From an uncultured Lachnospiraceae bacterium (GTDB taxonomy: Bacteria; Bacillota; Clostridia; Lachnospirales; Lachnospiraceae), in assembly GCA_900317555.1 (NCBI GenBank), contig ONHF01000017.1:1-56526 (forward strand): DNA of 56,526 bases, read 5' to 3'. Position 1 is the stretch's first letter. Each line of letters starts with the position of its first letter. The translations under genes and the position numbers were made by a program. Under the pieces are notes generated by a model. That model was not told the DNA's origin. It made no database searches and saw nothing but the letters and a program-made list of their open reading frames with translations. Shown here one piece after another: positions 15,628 through 26,902 of this stretch.

Positions 15628-15726
15628 AGAATATCATTTCATACGAAAAAGTCAAGAGGAATACTCTAAAACAGAGTGAAAATTTGCTAATTATCTATTT
15701 TCAACTACTATGCGAGGTGCTATACT
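15628..15726. promoter_or_regulatory. Divergent promoters with shared inverted-repeat operator
   Basis: Minus strand: -35 TTGACT (15650-15655), 16-bp spacer, -10 TATTCT (15628-15633) for the S24 repressor. Plus strand: -35-like TTTTCA (15698-15703), 17-bp spacer, -10 TATACT (15721-15726) for the polymerase. Between them lies the inverted repeat ACTCT-AAAAC-AGAGT (15663-15677), a candidate binding site for the repressor. No standard clostridial LexA box (GAAC-N4-GTTC) is visible, in keeping with control by the local repressor. The plus promoter puts the transcript start near 15733 and so excludes a coding start at 15710. Confidence 0.6.
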
Positions 15727-15787
15727 GACGTACAGAGAAAGGCGAAGAGAAAGTTGCCGGAAAATGGAAGACGAGGGGGTGAGAAGG

Positions 15788-17110
15788 ATGCCGGATCGGA
15801 TCATTTTGCATGTGGACTGCAATTGTTTTTACGCGTCGGTGGAGATGCTGTATCACCCGGAACTTGCCGGAAAGCCGCTTGCGGTCGGCGGTGATCCGCA
15901 GCAGCGCCACGGCATTGTCCTCACGGCCAACTACATCGCGAAGCGACGCGGCGTGAAGACCGGCATGGCGCTCTGGCAGGCGAGGCAGTGCTGCCCGGAC
16001 ATTGTTTTTGTTCCGCCGAGGATGTATCTGTATCTGCGCTTTTCCCGCATGGCAAGAGCCATTTATCAGGAATATTCCGGGCAGGTGGAGAGCTTCGGCC
16101 TCGATGAATGCTGGATCGATCTTACGGACAGCTGCGCGCTTCTGGGAAATCACACACGGACGCTCGAAAACGGCTGCCGGATTGCGCAGGAGATCAGCGC
16201 GAGGATTCGCCGGGAACTCGGTATCACGGTCAGTATCGGCGTCTCCTGGAACAAGATTTACGCAAAACTCGGCAGTGATTATAAGAAGCCGGATGCCATC
16301 ACTGTTTTTGACCGGGACAATTACAAGAAGCTGATCTATCCGCTTCCGGTGTCGGATCTTCTGTATGTCGGGAGAAGGACGGACAAGAAACTGGAGAAAT
16401 ACGGCATTCGCACGATCGGGGAGCTTGCGGATGCAGATCCTTCTTATCTTGAGAACTGGTTCGGCAAAATCGGCCTGATGCTGTCTGTTTTTGCAAGGGG
16501 GGAGGACCGGACGCCGGTAAATGATCTCGGCATAGAGGCGCCGGTCAAGAGCGTCGGCAACAGTACGACAACGCCGAGAGATCTGGTCAATGATGAGGAT
16601 GTGCGGCTCGTGCTTTATCTGCTTGCGGAGAGTGTATCGGAGCGGCTCCGGAAGAATCAATTTGAGGGGCAGGTGGTCTCCATTTATGTGCGTGACGCGG
16701 ATCTTTGCGGATACCACCAGCAGAAAAAGCTGGCGGCGCCCACCAACATCTCCGGCGAGATCGCGGGGGCGGCGTTTTCCATCTTTCAGCAGCTGTACCG
16801 GTGGGAGAAACCGATCCGGAGCATCGGGGTCAGTGTCTGTGACTTAAAACAGGAGGGACAGCCGAGGCAGCTTTCTCTGTTTCTGGATGAGCAGCACCGC
16901 GAGCAGCAGATGCGGGCGGACAGGATGGTGTCATTGATCCGCAGCCGGTACGGGTATGCCGCGGTGCAGAGGGGCATTATGCATGAGGACCGGTATCTTT
17001 CTTCCTTAAATGCGACGGCGGAGGACCATATGATTCATCCGCATTCGTATCTGGAACACGGAAACCGTAGCGGGTGTGAGACATTGCTTCTTACGAGGAA
17101 GGTGAGATAA
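15788..17110 (+). CDS. Y-family translesion DNA polymerase (UmuC/DinB-like)
   Basis: A 440-residue Y-family polymerase. Palm carboxylates are D10 (ILHVDCNCFYASVE) and D106/E107 (SFGLDECWIDLTD); the fingers region and the GVSWNKIYAKLGSDYKKPDA motif follow, then helix-hairpin-helix and little-finger domains ending with a C-terminal tail (LSLF near residue 363) like a sliding-clamp-binding motif. It copies damaged DNA with low fidelity. The start at 15788 is set by GAGGGGG 8 nt upstream; 15764 is also possible. The divergent S24 repressor implies SOS-type induction. Confidence 0.9.
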   Translation: MPDRIILHVDCNCFYASVEMLYHPELAGKPLAVGGDPQQRHGIVLTANYIAKRRGVKTGMALWQARQCCPDIVFVPPRMYLYLRFSRMARAIYQEYSGQVESFGLDECWIDLTDSCALLGNHTRTLENGCRIAQEISARIRRELGITVSIGVSWNKIYAKLGSDYKKPDAITVFDRDNYKKLIYPLPVSDLLYVGRRTDKKLEKYGIRTIGELADADPSYLENWFGKIGLMLSVFARGEDRTPVNDLGIEAPVKSVGNSTTTPRDLVNDEDVRLVLYLLAESVSERLRKNQFEGQVVSIYVRDADLCGYHQQKKLAAPTNISGEIAGAAFSIFQQLYRWEKPIRSIGVSVCDLKQEGQPRQLSLFLDEQHREQQMRADRMVSLIRSRYGYAAVQRGIMHEDRYLSSLNATAEDHMIHPHSYLEHGNRSGCETLLLTRKVR

Positions 17111-17522: not shown

Positions 17523-18767
17523 ATGGCATACAGCGAACTGATCAAGAATTTTGAGAAAATCCGGGCCTACATGCGGGATTTTTATGTCTTTGGCTTCCAC
17601 ACCCGCAACGACTTTGACCGGAAAAGTCCCCGCAGCTATGACAATGAGCGCCGGAGGATCGAAAGCTGGCTGGGCGATTCCATGGTATTTCACCAGGACG
17701 CTTCCGGGAAACGTGTATTTATTTCCGTAGACAGCCGGGAGACGCGGCATAATCCGCTCTACAGGGCGTTGAAGGCCAAAAGCTTCACGAATAAGGATAT
17801 CACTCTGCATTTTTATATTCTGGATATGCTGGCTGACGGCGAAAAACTTTCCTTTAAGACGATTGCCGACCGCATACAGGACTACTATATCGCGGATGAC
17901 TCTTTTATGCCGGATGACTCCACCATCCGTAATAAACTGAAGGAGTATGTATCCCTTGGAATCCTGAAGACGGAGAAGTTCGGAAGAGAGCTGCTCTATA
18001 GCCGATGCAACAGGGCATGGGATATGGATGCCTGGAAAGACGCGGTTTCTTTCGCGTCGGAGATGATGCCGCTTGGCGCAGTCGGCGCGTTCCTTCTAGA
18101 CAAATATCCGGATTCCCGTGATTATTTCAGCTTCAAGCACCATTATCTTATGGGAGCACTCGATTCAGGGATTCTTGAAGAACTTCTTGTCTGCCGCATG
18201 GAAAGAAAAAACGCGCTGATCACTTTTTCTACAAGGAGAGATAAAGACGGGAGGTATCAGGCGCTTGTCTATCCGATGAAGATATATATCAGTACGCGGA
18301 ACGGCAGGGAGAATCTGCTGGCATACAGTTTTGAAGAAAGATGTCCACGAATGTACAGACTGGACAGAATTCACGCAGTCAAAATGATGGAAAACCAACC
18401 GGAACCGGAAAAGCTGGAAAGGACGGGAAATTGTTTTGCCAGGTATTTATGGGGAACATCTTCAGGCCCTGACCGGAACAGAGAGCTTCAGAAACTGACC
18501 ATGCGGATTCGTTTGGAGGAAGACGAAAGCTTTGTTGCTGACAGGTTGTACAGGGAGAAGAGAAATGGAACCGTAATCCGGCTGGATGAGCATACCTATG
18601 AATTTATAGCCATTGTATATGATGCGCAGGAAATACTTCCATGGATACGGACTTTTACGGGCAGGATCGAAAGCCTTACCTGCACAGATCCGGAAGTGAC
18701 AAGGCGTTTTTATGAGGATCTTCAGGAAATGTATGAGATCTACGGAGGCGGCAATGCTGTTCAATGA
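17523..18767 (+). CDS. WYL-domain transcriptional regulator, first of pair
   Basis: A 414-residue protein: an N-terminal winged-helix region (about 15-60, with RNDFDRKSPRSYDNERRRIE), a second helical DNA-binding-like part (about 95-160), a WYL domain (about 225-300; ALVYPMKIYIS... LLAYSF... MYRLDRIHAV) and a C-terminal WCX-type domain. WYL domains are small Sm-like beta barrels thought to sense nucleic acid or nucleotide ligands and are enriched next to DNA- and RNA-damage and defence genes. AAAGGA precedes the ATG. The stop overlaps the second WYL gene by 14 bp. Confidence 0.85.
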   Translation: MAYSELIKNFEKIRAYMRDFYVFGFHTRNDFDRKSPRSYDNERRRIESWLGDSMVFHQDASGKRVFISVDSRETRHNPLYRALKAKSFTNKDITLHFYILDMLADGEKLSFKTIADRIQDYYIADDSFMPDDSTIRNKLKEYVSLGILKTEKFGRELLYSRCNRAWDMDAWKDAVSFASEMMPLGAVGAFLLDKYPDSRDYFSFKHHYLMGALDSGILEELLVCRMERKNALITFSTRRDKDGRYQALVYPMKIYISTRNGRENLLAYSFEERCPRMYRLDRIHAVKMMENQPEPEKLERTGNCFARYLWGTSSGPDRNRELQKLTMRIRLEEDESFVADRLYREKRNGTVIRLDEHTYEFIAIVYDAQEILPWIRTFTGRIESLTCTDPEVTRRFYEDLQEMYEIYGGGNAVQ

Positions 18768-19668
18768 GGTTTACGGAAGTTACTATAATGTTGTCGCCGG
18801 AATACTGACCGAAGCGGTCCGTGGAACGCTTTCAAAGGAACGTATCCGGGAAATTATCCTGAAAAAGGCTTACATGGAAAGTGGAATATCCATCCCCGAA
18901 GCGCTGGAAAAGGGGGAATGGCCGCTTCTTCGGAAGGACTACACAACACCTCTCCGACATGTGCCGACAATGCCGTTGACTACGCTGCAGAAACAATGGA
19001 TGAAGGCCATCTGTCAGGACCCGAGAATCCGCCTGTTTGACCCGCCGATGCAGGAGCTGGAGGATGTGGAGCCGCTGTTTTCGACTGACTTTTTTGTATG
19101 GTTTGACCGCGATGGCGATGGCGATCCGTATGAGGATCCCTTTTATCAGGAACATTTTAAAAAAGTGCTGTTGGCATTGAAGGAAGGCAGAGACCTGAGA
19201 ATCCGGTATCGCAGTAAACATTATTGTCACGACCAGATGTTTATCCCCGAAAAGCTGGAATATTCATCCAAGGATGACAAGTTCCGGCTTGTTGCGTATT
19301 CTCCAAAAGGAACACAGTATGTGATCCGTCTGGCCAGTGTCCTTGAAGTCAGTCTGACAGAAAAGAACGGGATTAGAAGCTTTTCTGTCAAACCGCGGAA
19401 GGAAATTGTTGTTTTGGAACTTGTTGATGAGAGAAATGCCCTTGAGCGGGCGATGATCCATTTCTCTGACATAGAGAAAGAGACTATGAAACTGGATGAT
19501 ACGCATTACCGGATCACGCTCCGTTACCGGAAAGAAGACGAAACGGAGATCCTGATCCGGGTGCTGTCCTTCGGCCCTAAAATCAGAGTCTCGTCTCCGG
19601 ACAGTTTTATTGAACTGATCCGGGAACGGCTCCATATGCAAAGAAATTTTGAAAGTTGCGGATCCTGA
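18754..19668 (+). CDS. WYL-domain transcriptional regulator, second of pair
   Basis: A 304-residue WYL protein without a classical N-terminal HTH of its own. The first about 110 residues are helical (LFNEVYGSYYNVVAGILTEA...); the WYL domain spans about 150-215 (FIPEKLEYSSKDDKFRLVAY) and a WCX-type C-terminal domain follows. The ATG at 18754, inside the end of the previous gene with CGGAGG upstream, is preferred over an upstream ATG at 18712. The pair probably forms a heteromeric regulator. The next elements downstream are a tRNA-like RNA and a Ro-like gene, so the pair is the obvious candidate regulator of that module. Confidence 0.82.
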   Translation: MLFNEVYGSYYNVVAGILTEAVRGTLSKERIREIILKKAYMESGISIPEALEKGEWPLLRKDYTTPLRHVPTMPLTTLQKQWMKAICQDPRIRLFDPPMQELEDVEPLFSTDFFVWFDRDGDGDPYEDPFYQEHFKKVLLALKEGRDLRIRYRSKHYCHDQMFIPEKLEYSSKDDKFRLVAYSPKGTQYVIRLASVLEVSLTEKNGIRSFSVKPRKEIVVLELVDERNALERAMIHFSDIEKETMKLDDTHYRITLRYRKEDETEILIRVLSFGPKIRVSSPDSFIELIRERLHMQRNFESCGS

Positions 19669-19687
19669 CGGGTTCGCAACTTTTTTT
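19652..19687 (+). terminator. Terminator overlapping the second WYL stop codon
   Basis: The stem AAAGTTGCG/CGCAACTTT (19652-19660 with 19675-19683), further paired inside, ends in a run of T to 19687. The hairpin contains the stop codon. It insulates the RNA gene downstream from the WYL operon. Confidence 0.85.
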
Positions 19688-19689
19688 CC

Positions 19690-19718
19690 ATGATCCGGGC
19701 TTTCCGTTCTGTTACTAT
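19690..19718 (+). promoter_or_regulatory. Extended -10 promoter for the tRNA-like RNA
   Basis: TG-T-TACTAT (19710-19718) is an extended -10 element, with a weak -35 (ATGATC) 17 bp upstream. It directly follows the terminator and would start a transcript near 19725, a few bases before the paired region of the RNA. Confidence 0.6.
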
Positions 19719-19730
19719 TAGCTCAAGAAA

Positions 19731-19840
19731 AGCGTCAACAGCAATTAACAGTCGCTATGTGGTCAAAGCACGGAGAAATCTTTCTCCGAAACAAGGGTTC
19801 GATTCCCGATAAGATGGCGCTTTGTAAAGGTGCTGACAGC
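19731..19840 (+). ncRNA. Y-RNA-like RNA with tRNA-mimic module (YrlA-like)
   Basis: About 110 nt between the WYL terminator and the Ro-like gene. The middle folds like a tRNA without acceptor stem: D-arm GCT/AGC with loop ATGTGGTCAA (19754-19769), anticodon-like arm CGGAG/CTCCG (19771-19788), and T-arm GGG-TTCGATT-CCC (19795-19807) whose loop matches the TpsiC consensus exactly. The flanks pair imperfectly as a long outer stem (GTCA-A-CA... at 19734 with ...TG-C-TGAC at 19837, internal loops). A tRNA-like module closed by a long stem is the plan of bacterial Y RNAs of the YrlA type, which bind Ro proteins and are usually encoded beside them. No CRISPR, leader peptide or true tRNA fits as well. 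Confidence 0.75.
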
Positions 19841-19905
19841 AAACTACTATCAAGAATACTGATTCTATATGGCACCTTGATGAACATGAGAAGGAGGGAA
19901 GAGCG

Positions 19906-21372
19906 ATGCTTGAGATGATGAAGAATGAGGCAAATATCACCTATACCGAAAATGGCGCAGTTACGCATGCAGGCACAGGATCGGAATGTCTGGATATGTT
20001 CGCAAGCATCGGAGCTCTCCGTGCCGAATCCGAGAATAAGATTACAGGGCTTTTTTTGCGTGCCTACGCGGAAAATGCCGACCTCGCGGTGAAGACGTTG
20101 TTCTTTGCGCGCGATATCCGCGGCGGACTCGGCGAGAGGCGGGTATTCCGGGTCATCCTGCGGTGGCTTGCGGATCATGAGCCGGAGACAGTCAGAAAGA
20201 ATCTTTCCTATATCAGCGAATTTGGAAGGTTCGATGATGAACTTTGCCTGTTTGGAACAGCTTGTGAGAATGATATGCTGAATACGCTGCGGGCACAGTT
20301 TCAGAAGGATCTTGAGACTATGTCCGCCGGCGGTCAGGTGTCACTTCTTTGCAAGTGGCTGCCGTCGGTAAATGCGTCCAACGTCAAAACAATCCGCAAG
20401 GCGAAAAGAATCGCACGGTCGTTTGGCATGACAGATGCTGCGTACCGAAAGAGCCTTACAGCTCTGAGAGCGCGGCTCCGGATTCTGGAAAATAACCTTC
20501 GAGAGAAGGATTATACCTTTGCATATGAGAAGCAGCCGTCCAAGGCGCTCTTTAAGTACAGGGAAGCTTTTCTCCGGAACGATGAAGCACGTTACCGGAG
20601 TTTTCTGGAGAAAGCGCGGACGGGCCGGTCTGTTTTGCATACGGGCACGCTTGCACCATACGATATCATTGCGCCGATTGTTTCCGAGGGTAATTTCCGT
20701 TCTTTTTCAGAAGACGAGAGGAAGAGCATGGATATCACATGGAACGCGCTGGAGGATTTTACGGGCGATGAGAATGCGCTCGTCGTCGTAGACGGTTCCG
20801 GTTCCATGTACTTCGGCGGAACGCCGTTGCCTGCGGCTGTGGCACTGTCTCTTGGAATCTACTTCGCGGAACATAATCATGGCTCATTCAGAAACCACTT
20901 CATTACATTCTCTTCGTCACCGGTTCTGGTGCAGATTAAGGGAAGGGATATTGTGGAGAAAGTACGTTACTGCATGTCGTTTGACGACTGCAGCAATACG
21001 GATCTGGAAAAGGTTTTTGATCTGATTCTGTATACGGCGGTAAAGCACGGACTTCCGCAGAGGGAACTCCCGGCCAAGCTGTACATTATTTCGGATATGG
21101 AGTTTGACTGCTGCAGCCATGCGGAAATGACGAATTTCCAGTCGGCAAAAAAGAAGTTCGAGGCAGCAGGGTATGCTTTGCCGCAGGTGGTATTCTGGAA
21201 TGTCCAGAGCAGGAACCGCCAGCTGCCGGTCACAAGAAACGAGCAGGGGGTCTGCCTCGTCTCCGGCTGCAGCGCGCAGATCTTTTCCATGCTGAAAAGT
21301 GACACACTGAATCCGTATGACTTTATGATGCAGGTGCTGATGGCAGAGCGTTACGCCCGGATTACGGCGTAG
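19906..21372 (+). CDS. Ro60-like RNA-binding protein (DUF2828 / TROVE-vWA)
   Basis: A 488-residue protein. The first about 280 residues are helical and HEAT-repeat-like (FFARDIRGGLGERRVFRVIL is the conserved TROVE-type segment); the rest is a von Willebrand A domain with MIDAS motif D296-G-S-G-S300 (VVVDGSGSM) and later DMEFD. Ro-family proteins form an RNA-binding ring that scaffolds misfolded RNAs and, with Y RNA, gates access of exonucleases such as PNPase. The ATG at 19906 has AAGGAGGGA upstream. The Y-like RNA lies 65 bp before it. Whether DUF2828 proteins act exactly as Rsr does is not established. Confidence 0.8.
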   Translation: MLEMMKNEANITYTENGAVTHAGTGSECLDMFASIGALRAESENKITGLFLRAYAENADLAVKTLFFARDIRGGLGERRVFRVILRWLADHEPETVRKNLSYISEFGRFDDELCLFGTACENDMLNTLRAQFQKDLETMSAGGQVSLLCKWLPSVNASNVKTIRKAKRIARSFGMTDAAYRKSLTALRARLRILENNLREKDYTFAYEKQPSKALFKYREAFLRNDEARYRSFLEKARTGRSVLHTGTLAPYDIIAPIVSEGNFRSFSEDERKSMDITWNALEDFTGDENALVVVDGSGSMYFGGTPLPAAVALSLGIYFAEHNHGSFRNHFITFSSSPVLVQIKGRDIVEKVRYCMSFDDCSNTDLEKVFDLILYTAVKHGLPQRELPAKLYIISDMEFDCCSHAEMTNFQSAKKKFEAAGYALPQVVFWNVQSRNRQLPVTRNEQGVCLVSGCSAQIFSMLKSDTLNPYDFMMQVLMAERYARITA

Positions 21373-23410: not shown

Positions 23411-23421
23411 AGGAATTGCCC

Positions 23422-24027
23422 ATGCGGATTATCATTTCTCCCGCAAAACAAATGCGGACCGACACAGACACCATAGCCTGCACAGAGACGCCGGTTTTTC
23501 TTGAAAAGACTGCTATCCTCAAAGACTGGATCAGCGGTCTTTCTTTTGATGAGCAGAAAAAGCTCTGGGTGAGCAACGATAAAATTGCAAAACAAAACGC
23601 GGCACGTTTTGCCGGCATGGATTTAAAGAGCAGTTTAACCCCGGCACTGCTGGCATACGACGGCATTCAGTATACGTATATGGCTCCGGCCGTTTTTGAG
23701 GATGGTCAGGTAACGTATGTGCAGGAGCATTTGCGTATACTTTCGGGATTCTATGGCGTTTTAAAACCGATGGACGACCGCTGTATCACTTGCGTTTTCG
23801 GAGAACTCGTGAACGGAAAGGTCGTTCAGAAGGGCGTATATGCCAAGATGGCCAGAGGCGAGATGGTGCGCTTTATGGCAGGGATTCAGGCGGAGAAACC
23901 GGAGCAGATCAAGAATTTTGACTGGAGCGGTTATCAATTTGATGAGGGCAGGTCGTCGGAGATGGAATATGTTTTCGTACGGGCGGAGCGAAGCTCGTCC
24001 GGCGCAGATACGGAGGAATTAACATGA
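23422..24027 (+). pseudogene. yaaA: YaaA peroxide-response protein with in-frame internal deletion
   Basis: 201 codons against about 250 in the family. The start MRIIISPAKQM and the stretch HLRILSGFYGVLKPMD are intact, but the next motif is ITCVFGEL...KGVYAKMARGEMVR. The family segment between them, usually starting GVTPYRLEMQ and running about 50 residues, is missing. YaaA lowers free iron during peroxide stress in E. coli. The deletion removes a conserved core segment, so loss of function is likely though the frame is open. The ATG at 23422 with AAGGA upstream is preferred over 23416. It follows the similarly deleted bcp by 11 bp and overlaps the next gene by 4 bp. Confidence 0.8.
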
Positions 24028-25738: not shown

Positions 25739-26902
25739 ATGCTGCTTTCAGTTATTTTCCTGATCTTTATCAGTCTCGGACTCCCGGACTCCCTGCTCGG
25801 CTCCGGCTGGCCTACCATGCAGAAGGCTTTTGCCGTACCGTCTTCCTATGCAGGATATGTTTCGATGTCCATCTCCTTTATGACGATTTTGTCCGCGCTC
25901 GTAAGCCCCCGGATGATCCGGCGGTTCCGTACACAGTGGATTGTCATCGTGTCCATCCTGCTTACCGTGATCGGTCTGATCGGATTTTCGTTTTCAACAT
26001 CGTATTGGATGCTGTTTTTGTTCGTTGTGCCTTACGGCCTCGGCGCCGGCGCGATTGACGCATCGGTCAACCATTATGTTGCGAGCCACTATTCTTCGGC
26101 GGTCATGAATTTTCTGCATTGCTTCTATGGCGTAGGTGCTGTGATCAGCCCGAATATCATGGCGCTGGCCCTGCGGTACGCGGACTGGGAGCAGGGCTAC
26201 CGCTGGACGGCCTTCATTCAGATGGGAATTCTGATTGTGTGTGTTCTTTCGCTGCCGCTTTGGAAGAATCACGGCAGTGCAGCTGGAGAAGGCGCCGAAG
26301 CGGGTGCCGGCATCCGGGAATCCGTCAAAGTACCCGGCGTGATCCCGACCCTGATCGCGTTCTTCGCGTATTGCTCCGGGGAGGCTACGTGCTTTTTGTG
26401 GACGTCGAGCTACTTTGCCGGCGCCAAAACAGGCCTGACCAACGGTATGATCGCCTCCTTTGGTTCTCTGATTTTCGGCGGCTTAATGTTCGGAAGACTC
26501 CTTTCGGGCATTGTGTCGAACCGTCTGGGCGACAGGCTGCTGATCCGGATCGGAATTTCAGTTGAGCTGGTGGGAATTGTCATGGTGATGCTTCCGATTG
26601 AGAATTATATTCCTGCGGCAATTGGCTTCGTCATTATCGGAACGGGGATGGGACCGGTGTATCCCGCGATTCAGCATATGGCGCCGGTGAACTTCGGGGA
26701 GCGCTACAGCGCGTCGGTGATCGGCCTGCAGATGGCTTCCGCATATTTGGGGAGCACGCTTATGCCGATGGTATTCGGACATCTGCAGCAAAGCTTCGGC
26801 ATCGTGATCATGCCGTATTATCTGCTGGTATTTGCGGTGATGAATTTTGTTTTGCTGGAGAGAACGTACCGCGTGTTGAAGAGGAAAGAGGGAGAACGGT
26901 AA
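25739..26902 (+). CDS. MFS transporter (fucose-permease-like group)
   Basis: A 387-residue transporter with about 12 membrane segments. The start MLLSVIFLIFISLGLPDSLLG and the following WPTMQKAF resemble the small MFS group related to FucP, which often takes up sugars. The later GLGAGAIDASVNHYVA loop and GTGMGPVYPAIQHM in the second half support it. 25739 is chosen for GGAGG 11 nt upstream; an in-frame TTG at 25691 lies within the promoter. Followed by a VOC gene 4 bp later. Confidence 0.85.
   Translation: MLLSVIFLIFISLGLPDSLLGSGWPTMQKAFAVPSSYAGYVSMSISFMTILSALVSPRMIRRFRTQWIVIVSILLTVIGLIGFSFSTSYWMLFLFVVPYGLGAGAIDASVNHYVASHYSSAVMNFLHCFYGVGAVISPNIMALALRYADWEQGYRWTAFIQMGILIVCVLSLPLWKNHGSAAGEGAEAGAGIRESVKVPGVIPTLIAFFAYCSGEATCFLWTSSYFAGAKTGLTNGMIASFGSLIFGGLMFGRLLSGIVSNRLGDRLLIRIGISVELVGIVMVMLPIENYIPAAIGFVIIGTGMGPVYPAIQHMAPVNFGERYSASVIGLQMASAYLGSTLMPMVFGHLQQSFGIVIMPYYLLVFAVMNFVLLERTYRVLKRKEGER

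Follow-up and report, generated by a model that had tools for sequence, protein, structure and literature searches.

Candidate Y-like RNAs with a common handle and varied tRNA mimicry beside a DUF2828 gene of a Lachnospiraceae bacterium and its relatives

Among the closest described systems to the locus considered here are the bacterial YrlA RNAs, which are circularly permuted transfer RNAs (tRNAs) according to the available portions of PMC11472068 and PMC8394870. Binding of the Ro protein, tethering of PNPase and modification by DusA/TruB are further characteristics of this class. For the role of the tRNA shape of bacterial Y RNAs, the parts of PMC8394870 and PMC7790460 at hand offer proposals only, and PMC7790460, in the same part, speculates that the tRNA-like portion of YrlA may act as a competitive inhibitor of an anticodon nuclease. 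As regards phages, the accessible sections of PMC7824862 place ROT/TROVE proteins among RNA-repair systems, while those of PMC12282133 mention mycobacteriophage Y RNAs, citing Chen 2014, propose by HHpred that a protein of Listeria phage CKA15 is an Rsr homologue, and report this Rsr-like protein from virions, as well as abundant unannotated RNAs upstream of its gene (by RNA-seq) that may be Y RNAs. In this study, we focus on a locus in contig ONHF01000017.1 of an uncultured Lachnospiraceae bacterium (assembly GCA_900317555.1), analysed as a window of 56,526 nucleotides (nt), in which a gene of the DUF2828 family is preceded by two putative RNA modules that share a short helical handle with the motif ACAGCAA. 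A first-pass annotation of this sequence had proposed a single tRNA-mimicking, YrlA-type RNA next to a Ro60-like gene of a less studied branch. The last point fits the literature surveyed here, since the studies naming DUF2828 among the matches listed are plant or crop studies by title, not studies of the bacterial or phage protein; the ACAGCAA handle, five-armed tRNAs and bacterial DUF2828 are not described among those matches, no search having been aimed at the handle itself.

The product of the gene has 488 residues, for which Pfam at expectation values (E) up to 0.001 gives DUF2828 and DUF7788 only, with DUF2828 (PF11443) scoring 108.5 bits against a gathering cut-off of 29. The family phrog_850, named 'RNA-binding protein', matches the protein over its whole length (E 7.5e-127), and TROVE (PF05731) has no Pfam match in the protein and none in the genome of the window. 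A sequence search of the PDB with the protein profile returned one weak match, to a TROVE protein (E 2.2), and the assignment rests on a fold search, in which DUF2828 is modelled with the Ro60/TROVE fold, namely an alpha-repeat ring and a vWA domain. The earlier view of DUF2828 as a Ro relative agrees with this model. Across 66 sequences, D296 and T365 are invariant, and S298, G299 and S300 are conserved in at least 90%; we take D296, S298, S300 and T365 to be the residues of the vWA metal ion-dependent adhesion site (DxSxS motif).

At minimum free energy (MFE), module 1 forms a helix of 9 base pairs (bp) around D-like, anticodon-like and T-like hairpins, the last with TTCGATT (-26.9 kcal/mol; z score -2.3, with 5 of 200 shuffles equally stable), and in this respect the RNA described by the first-pass annotation was found as stated. 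A second putative RNA, module 2, had been missed; it folds as a plain hairpin with the same outer signature (z -2.05, 9 of 200 shuffles equally stable). The ends of the modules lie 81 nt (module 1) and 26 nt (module 2) upstream of the DUF2828 start. A covariance model built from 44 modules (R1), both window modules being in its training set, matches the 56.5-kb window at these two places only. The wider stretch of 161 nt folds unremarkably (z -1.5, 17 of 200 shuffles as good), and as the fold of the whole region is unconvincing, the evidence for an RNA came instead from comparison across relatives.

With the genome of the window counted each time, relatives were obtained from 28 of 61 genomes of the genus, 31 of 299 of the family, 31 of 295 of the order and 4 of 299 of the phylum, together with six loci from one GTDB contig scan, the best 80 of 567 confirmed viral contigs, and ten phage records chosen among the 682 that contain a DUF2828 homologue out of 50,697 (loci are cited below by their L numbers). 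One of these loci, L032, encodes a protein identical to the DUF2828 protein of the window. The handle emerging from this comparison is a near-invariant short helix, AAGRYRC paired with GYRYCTTG, whose inner end carries ACAGCAA. Counting this motif around 99 bacterial loci gave 136 sense and 0 antisense copies in the first 600 nt upstream, as compared with 15 in the 600 nt downstream and 13 at 900-1500 nt upstream; up to six copies lie within 1 kb at a locus. The longer pattern AAG-N6-ACAGCAA is found 74 times in sense, never in antisense or downstream, and twice at 900-1500 nt upstream. Duplicates among the 99 loci are few, the 96 distinct stretches giving 134 sense and 0 antisense copies of ACAGCAA. 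Around 80 viral loci, the motif was counted 132 times in sense, once in antisense and 43 times downstream. A module finder which also requires the helix and a CTTG-like end detected at least one module upstream of 55 of 89 bacterial loci (antisense 1/89, downstream 3/86) and of 58 of 79 viral loci (antisense 0/79, downstream 19/76), and the last figure indicates that viral RNAs also sit downstream of DUF2828. Searched against the 61 genomes of the genus, R1 gave 16 matches, 12 of them just upstream of DUF2828 and 4 elsewhere (including L103, at a contig end); under strict filters it is insensitive, with a match in 10 of 28 genomes having DUF2828 versus 1 of 33 without.

The helix itself was assessed in several ways. 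In an alignment of 44 modules (A1), 92.2% of cells are paired and the covariation score is 0.641, as high in 0 of 500 shuffles; because the finder modules and A1 were selected partly by helix pairing, these pair counts are inflated, which is to be counted with the adverse points gathered further below. A cleaner test, anchored only on AAG-N6-ACAGCAA and the next CTTG, shows all four variable pairs formed in 61 of 71 modules (two further anchors have no CTTG), against a mean of 21.9 and a maximum of 29 when arms are permuted between modules 200 times. In a third comparison (A3), 11 modules of the window design, chosen by eye and leaving out a twelfth candidate, L094, with an atypical T arm, were aligned over the D, anticodon, T and outer helices. 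Here, 96.3% of cells are paired and two-sided changes occur at 12 of 20 pairs, including all five of the anticodon arm; shuffles reach these values for paired cells, two-sided pairs and covariation score in 0 of 500 cases, and for further pair types in 17 of 500. Thus, the paired arms that had been proposed are conserved in relatives. The pairing of this RNA family with the DUF2828 family is well supported by sequence comparison.

Beyond the handle, the payload is modular, and many payloads mimic tRNA, some as complete tRNAs and others through T and D arms, anticodon-like loops or a hairpin resembling the acceptor. In a permuted design (a), the handle encloses a T arm, an acceptor-like hairpin and a D arm, at times preceded by an anticodon arm; at least eight of 44 T-arm modules were assigned to this type by eye, and the RNA of Enterococcus phage iF6 (L189) is predicted to fold so without guidance, its acceptor hairpin having 7 bp and its 7-nt loop reading CUGAAAA. 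Design (b), seen in the window, L036, L038, L040, L067-L071, L073 and L075, keeps the order D-anticodon-T with the handle replacing the acceptor, and four of its members, L036, L038, L070 and L075, pass the threshold of the tRNA model RF00005 (43.1, 45.3, 37.7 and 36.3 bits). Design (c) is a tRNA chassis in which the handle is an extra hairpin with inverted strands, GYRYCTTG-loop-AAGRYRC-nn-ACAGCAA, and design (d), to which module 2 of the window belongs, consists of plain hairpins. Across 177 upstream stretches, 41 inverted handles were counted in sense versus 2 in antisense; the 41 include chance pairings of adjacent ordinary modules, as when window module 2 pairs with the module 1 end, and 24 of the 41 are preceded by a D-like and followed by a T-like arm. 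Submitting 52 locus slots (12, 20 and 20) to Rfam gave 29 RF00005 matches of 105-130 nt above the threshold, and in 23 of these ACAGCA(A/G) lies inside the inserted stretch, where the handle forms an extra arm between the D and anticodon arms; ACAGCA is present in only 1 of 30 best tRNA-model matches of normal length. One of the 29 long RNAs, that of L125, lies downstream of its DUF2828 gene. On the basis of secondary structure, we infer that designs (a) and (c) are one shape, with the handle between the D and anticodon arms and only the strand ends moved. At L170 (2165-2245), a stretch of 81 nt scores in Rfam as a full-length transfer-messenger RNA (tmRNA) at 55.8 bits; it lies just upstream of a viral DUF2828 gene and its handle RNA, and looks like a tmRNA from which nearly everything between the tRNA halves is gone.

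Anticodon-like loops were counted in 225 non-redundant modules (115 bacterial and 110 viral) by the rule of a 7-nt loop Y-U-NNN-R-N, excluding T-loops since they fit the same rule. Such loops occur in 57 of the 225 modules (33 bacterial, 24 viral), and shuffled sequences give means of 2.7 and 2.6 (5.3 in sum) with a maximum of 7 in each set. The commonest are CUGUUAA (Asn GUU, nine modules) and CUUUUAA (Lys UUU, six), and the anticodon of one of the 57 would pair with a stop codon. Among the tRNA-chassis RNAs, 12 of 27 have such a loop between the motif and the T arm (shuffled mean 0.5, maximum 3), two of the 29 having been dropped for want of a recognisable motif under a pattern looser than that used for the count of 23.

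How these RNAs relate to YrlA can be judged from the TROVE-linked RNAs, although the sample is small, as the TROVE family matched 6 of 249 phylum genomes and gave four full-length loci (L195-L198). By eye, the RNAs of L195, L196 and L198 carry GAGGCG with TACTTCG, those of L197 carry GAGGCG with GCTTCG and GCTCCG, and all have TTCCTCG-like strands and no ACAGCAA handle; stray copies of ACAGCAA lie away from the RNAs, 656 nt upstream in L198 and 399 and 266 nt downstream in L195 and L197, respectively. Conversely, the window helix contains none of the GAGGCG, TACTTCG, GCTTCG or GCTCCG strands of the Ro site in the four TROVE loci, as judged by eye. In this small sample, the handle goes with the protein family, TROVE having one stem sequence and DUF2828 another, and the tRNA-like payload is common to both; CUGUUAA, for instance, also occurs (by eye) in Y RNAs beside the TROVE gene of L196 and beside a broken TROVE fragment, L199. 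The likeness to YrlA and Rsr comprises an RNA beside a Ro-fold protein gene, a basal helix, tRNA-like T and D arms and more than one RNA per locus, and in L004, L006, L009 and L189 it extends to the order T arm, acceptor-like hairpin, D arm, so that the relation to YrlA is real. The label 'YrlA-type' nevertheless fails for the window RNA, which follows tRNA order, D-anticodon-T with a helix in place of the acceptor, and not the circularly permuted order, and whose AAGRYRC/ACAGCAA/GYRYCTTG strands differ from the GAGGCG...TACTTCG...TTCCTCG-like strands of the TROVE-linked Ro site. Further differences are that some relatives are tRNAs with an added arm, that a locus may hold up to six copies of the motif, and that the window protein is DUF2828, unlike Rsr, with no TROVE match in Pfam. 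Compared with tRNA (RF00005) and the tRNA part of tmRNA, the chassis RNAs share the acceptor, D and T arms and, in 12 of 27, an anticodon loop; they differ from RF00005 tRNAs in the extra handle arm between the D and anticodon arms, and other modules differ in that the handle helix replaces the acceptor. Judged from sequence, the DUF2828-linked RNAs look like a second family of Y-like RNAs, parallel to YrlA.

In the ten phage loci, the handle is present in five, L184, L188, L189, L192 and L193 (as ACAGCAG in the last). DUF2828 lies by tRNA genes in Listeria phage CKA15, Enterococcus phage iF6 and Campylobacter phage NCTC12673; in CKA15 it precedes an annotated tRNA splicing ligase and RNA ligase, and in GAP32 an RNA ligase is next to it. 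The CKA15 protein (CKA15_055), 39% identical to the window protein, belongs to the same DUF2828 family, and the account of its putative Y RNAs in the available part of PMC12282133 defines no RNA element. The three CKA15 modules (L184) could be the three abundant RNAs of that account; the one active region with coordinates in the available part is not at a module. The mycobacteriophage 'Ro-like RNA binding protein' Faith1 gp55 is likewise a DUF2828 homologue (37% identical to that of the window); it differs from the window in having no ACAGCAA module within 1.9 kb upstream. The record of iF6 (L189, 18-659 and 2060-2132) annotates four tRNAs opposite to the DUF2828 strand. The Rfam tRNA matches at these coordinates are on the DUF2828 strand itself, and the annotation is probably a strand slip.

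Some individual bacterial loci show features of their own. The 1-1500 region upstream in L002 (G000:C28) belongs to a second DUF2828 paralogue of the same genome (39% identity); several consecutive tRNA genes lie there next to handle RNAs of its own, which are of the TGTGACCC...GGGTCATG type. A tRNA-Asp-like gene follows the first handle RNA in L004 (951-1023), L006 (714-786) and L100 (4279-4352), with the anticodon GTC in L004 and L006 and no DUF2828 near the L100 copy, and a tRNA-Glu (CTC) follows a handle RNA in L004, L006 and L007. L010, L011, L014 and L031 encode DUF2828 paralogues 43-44% identical to that of the window, without ACAGCAA, and share a conserved CAGGCGCATACAGCAG...GCGTCTG stretch of ~190 nt, about 760-890 nt upstream, which is perhaps a longer variant RNA.

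In the window, the order is two WYL genes, the TTCGCAACTTTTTTTCCATGA element, an extended -10, modules 1 and 2, and the DUF2828 gene (Table 1). The extended -10 promoter, TGTTACTAT, claimed earlier for the RNA, is present; it is absent from the output of a consensus promoter scan, which requires a -35, and -10-like hexamers occur in relatives at similar spacing from the element, as judged by eye. A direct check also found the upstream terminator that had been described, with a 10-bp stem, a 14-nt loop and a T-run, its T-run half being part of a wider conserved element; a standard terminator scan, which allows loops of 3-8 nt only, lists none in the window. Of 99 loci, 26 have a CGCANCTTTTTT element (L001 and L032 being identical in sequence, and L014 having no motif after the element), and a WYL homologue lies within the stretch in 20 of the 26. 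A stem of at least 6 bp is found at the element in 9 of the 26 loci and none in the other 17; as it is kept mostly without a stem, the T-run element probably does more than terminate. The same element precedes an orphan RNA copy away from DUF2828 (L100). The element may act as an operator, perhaps recognised by the WYL proteins, and at some loci serve as a terminator too. As to the proteins themselves, Pfam gave no match for WYL gene 1 at E up to 0.001, and for WYL gene 2 gave WCX at E 2.3e-4, below the family cut-off. None of the eight window proteins scanned matched rtcBA or RtcR. A DNA polymerase IV-like gene (15710-17110) and a peroxide-stress YaaA gene (23416-24027) flank the locus, and a damage-response neighbourhood is possible.

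Table 1. Features of the DUF2828 locus, with positions in the 56,526-nt window
Feature	Position	Strand	Evidence
WYL-domain gene 1, probable regulator	17523..18767	+	PADLOC WYL, E 1.5e-9
WYL-domain gene 2, probable regulator	18712..19668	+	PADLOC WYL, E 7.7e-11
Conserved element TTCGCAACTTTTTTTCCATGA, also right half of terminator-like hairpin in the window	19673..19693	+	Same element in 26/99 loci
Extended -10 TGTTACTAT	19710..19718	+	Read from sequence
Putative Y-like RNA module 1, tRNA-mimicking (extent of conserved core)	19729..19824	+	Covariance model R1, 42.4 bits, E 2.4e-8; fold; covariation
5' helix arm AAAGCGTCA, then ACAGCAA (19738-19744)	19729..19744	+	Alignments A1 and A3; pair counts
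D-like arm	19754..19769	+	MFE; D-stem cells paired 93.8% in A3
Anticodon-like arm (CGGAGAA/TTCTCCG)	19771..19788	+	MFE; two-sided change at 5/5 pairs in A3
T-like arm GGGTTCGATTCCC, with TTCGATT	19795..19807	+	MFE; Rfam tmRNA T-arm piece, 7.2 bits; A3
3' helix arm TGGCGCTTTG	19815..19824	+	A1, A3
Putative Y-like RNA module 2, plain hairpin AAGGTGCTG-ACAGCAA...TGGCACCTTG	19827..19879	+	R1, 36.8 bits, E 5.6e-7; fold
DUF2828/DUF7788 protein, Ro60-fold	19906..21372	+	

The locus probably encodes a Ro-type ribonucleoprotein (RNP) that holds tRNA mimics, with the protection or repair of tRNA as its likeliest use; expression, binding and function are all predicted. In such a system, the DUF2828 ring would bind the handle, by analogy with the binding of the Y RNA stem by Ro60, and the RNP would hold the mimics so that these could engage tRNA-acting enzymes. 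Under attack by anticodon nucleases, the mimics may serve as decoys or scaffolds in tRNA protection or repair, and the WYL regulators would control the locus through the TTCGCAACTTTTTT element. A bolder and more tentative version, which we regard as possible but doubtful, is that bacteria and large phages keep a bank of tRNAs with several anticodons, each with a fifth arm that clips onto the Ro-fold ring, the permuted Y RNAs being the same object with its ends moved; such a bank would soak up or report anticodon nucleases, and the anticodon loop of the payload (Asn GUU and Lys UUU being the commonest) would be its specificity code.

A number of observations count against this interpretation. 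ACAGCAA is missing within 600 nt in 27 of 96 loci, and in A1 two-sided changes at 8 of 9 pairs are equalled by 22 of 500 shuffles and further pair types by 270 of 500. Neither Rfam, at gathering thresholds, nor ARAGORN gives a match in the window, and as the RF00005 threshold is not reached, its RNA does not count as a tRNA on Rfam evidence alone; relaxing E to 10 adds only the tmRNA T-arm piece and a SAM-III riboswitch (E 7.1) set aside as a chance match. Neither window module has a canonical 7-nt anticodon loop, many modules, module 2 of the window among them, are plain hairpins without tRNA features, and the T-arm pattern is matched by only 44 of 225 modules. Folded as single sequences, L036, L038 and L075 come out without the D arm, and the five-armed candidate of L109 (2065-2181) folds with its acceptor, handle hairpin and T arm, but not its D and anticodon arms; the locus slots submitted to Rfam were, moreover, selected partly for tRNA features. 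Among the phage loci, modules are convincing in only five of ten, L185, L186, L190 and L191 lacking the handle and L187 having the bare motif, and RNA ligase or RtcB neighbours are annotated in only two of ten (one of the ten being unannotated). In CKA15, the most active, apparently non-coding region (26,236-26,727; L184 3477-3968) has no ACAGCAA module, and the three modules lie ~0.7-0.95 kb past it, towards DUF2828.

The same facts have to be weighed under other explanations. A decay machine like RYPER, in which the handle sits on the DUF2828 ring while an exoribonuclease, for instance PNPase, is tethered by the payload and made to degrade structured RNA, the tRNA shape being only a docking surface, has a known precedent in the Rsr-Y RNA complex of D. 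radiodurans (available parts of PMC8394870 and PMC7790460), and both the protein fold and the YrlA order of the permuted payloads speak for it. We consider it rather unlikely, as the payloads range from plain hairpins to whole tRNAs with differing anticodon-like loops, which is more than one docking surface needs, and in four of ten phage stretches the neighbours of the phage copy include tRNA or RNA-ligase genes, while PNPase or RNase R is annotated in none of the ten (an 'exonuclease' of unspecified type is annotated in L190 and one of the RecB family in L192).

The position of the modules directly upstream of DUF2828 on the same strand, with module 2 ending 26 nt before the start codon, would also suit a cis-acting leader, that is, structures that process or regulate the DUF2828 mRNA (autoregulation by the protein) and are not free RNAs. 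This is improbable in view of the four of 16 R1 matches in the 61 genomes that lie away from DUF2828 (one of them, L103, ambiguous in this respect owing to its place at a contig end), of L100, which does so with the same promoter element, of the viral copies that are also downstream (19 of 76 loci), and of the up to six ACAGCAA copies in 1 kb and the tRNA chassis that have their own acceptor. Ordinary tRNA genes are present in several loci, and the arrays might be taken for debris, namely tRNA genes that have decayed or contain introns, located close to a mobile gene and with no common function; this is scarcely credible, since the handle is strand-specific (136 versus 0), its pairs covary, 24 of 41 inverted handles are flanked by D-like and T-like arms, and anticodon loops are kept far above shuffles.

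Taken as a Ro-type RNP with tRNA mimics, and judging from comparison of sequences, the locus appears to represent a poorly described Ro-type RNA-protein branch, whose RNAs have a defined handle and mimic tRNA to an unusually rich degree. It would add a second family, recognised independently and marked by a handle of its own, with 225 non-redundant natural variants in the present sample, carriage by phages, and payloads that extend to tRNAs bearing an added arm. The handle provides a means of finding unannotated RNAs beside DUF2828 genes, and long 'tRNA' matches beside such genes deserve a second look. Such a family makes the question of what the tRNA shape is for testable, and if the tentative view of a bank of decoys is true, the anticodon loops of bacterial Y RNAs would reflect an arms race over tRNA cleavage.

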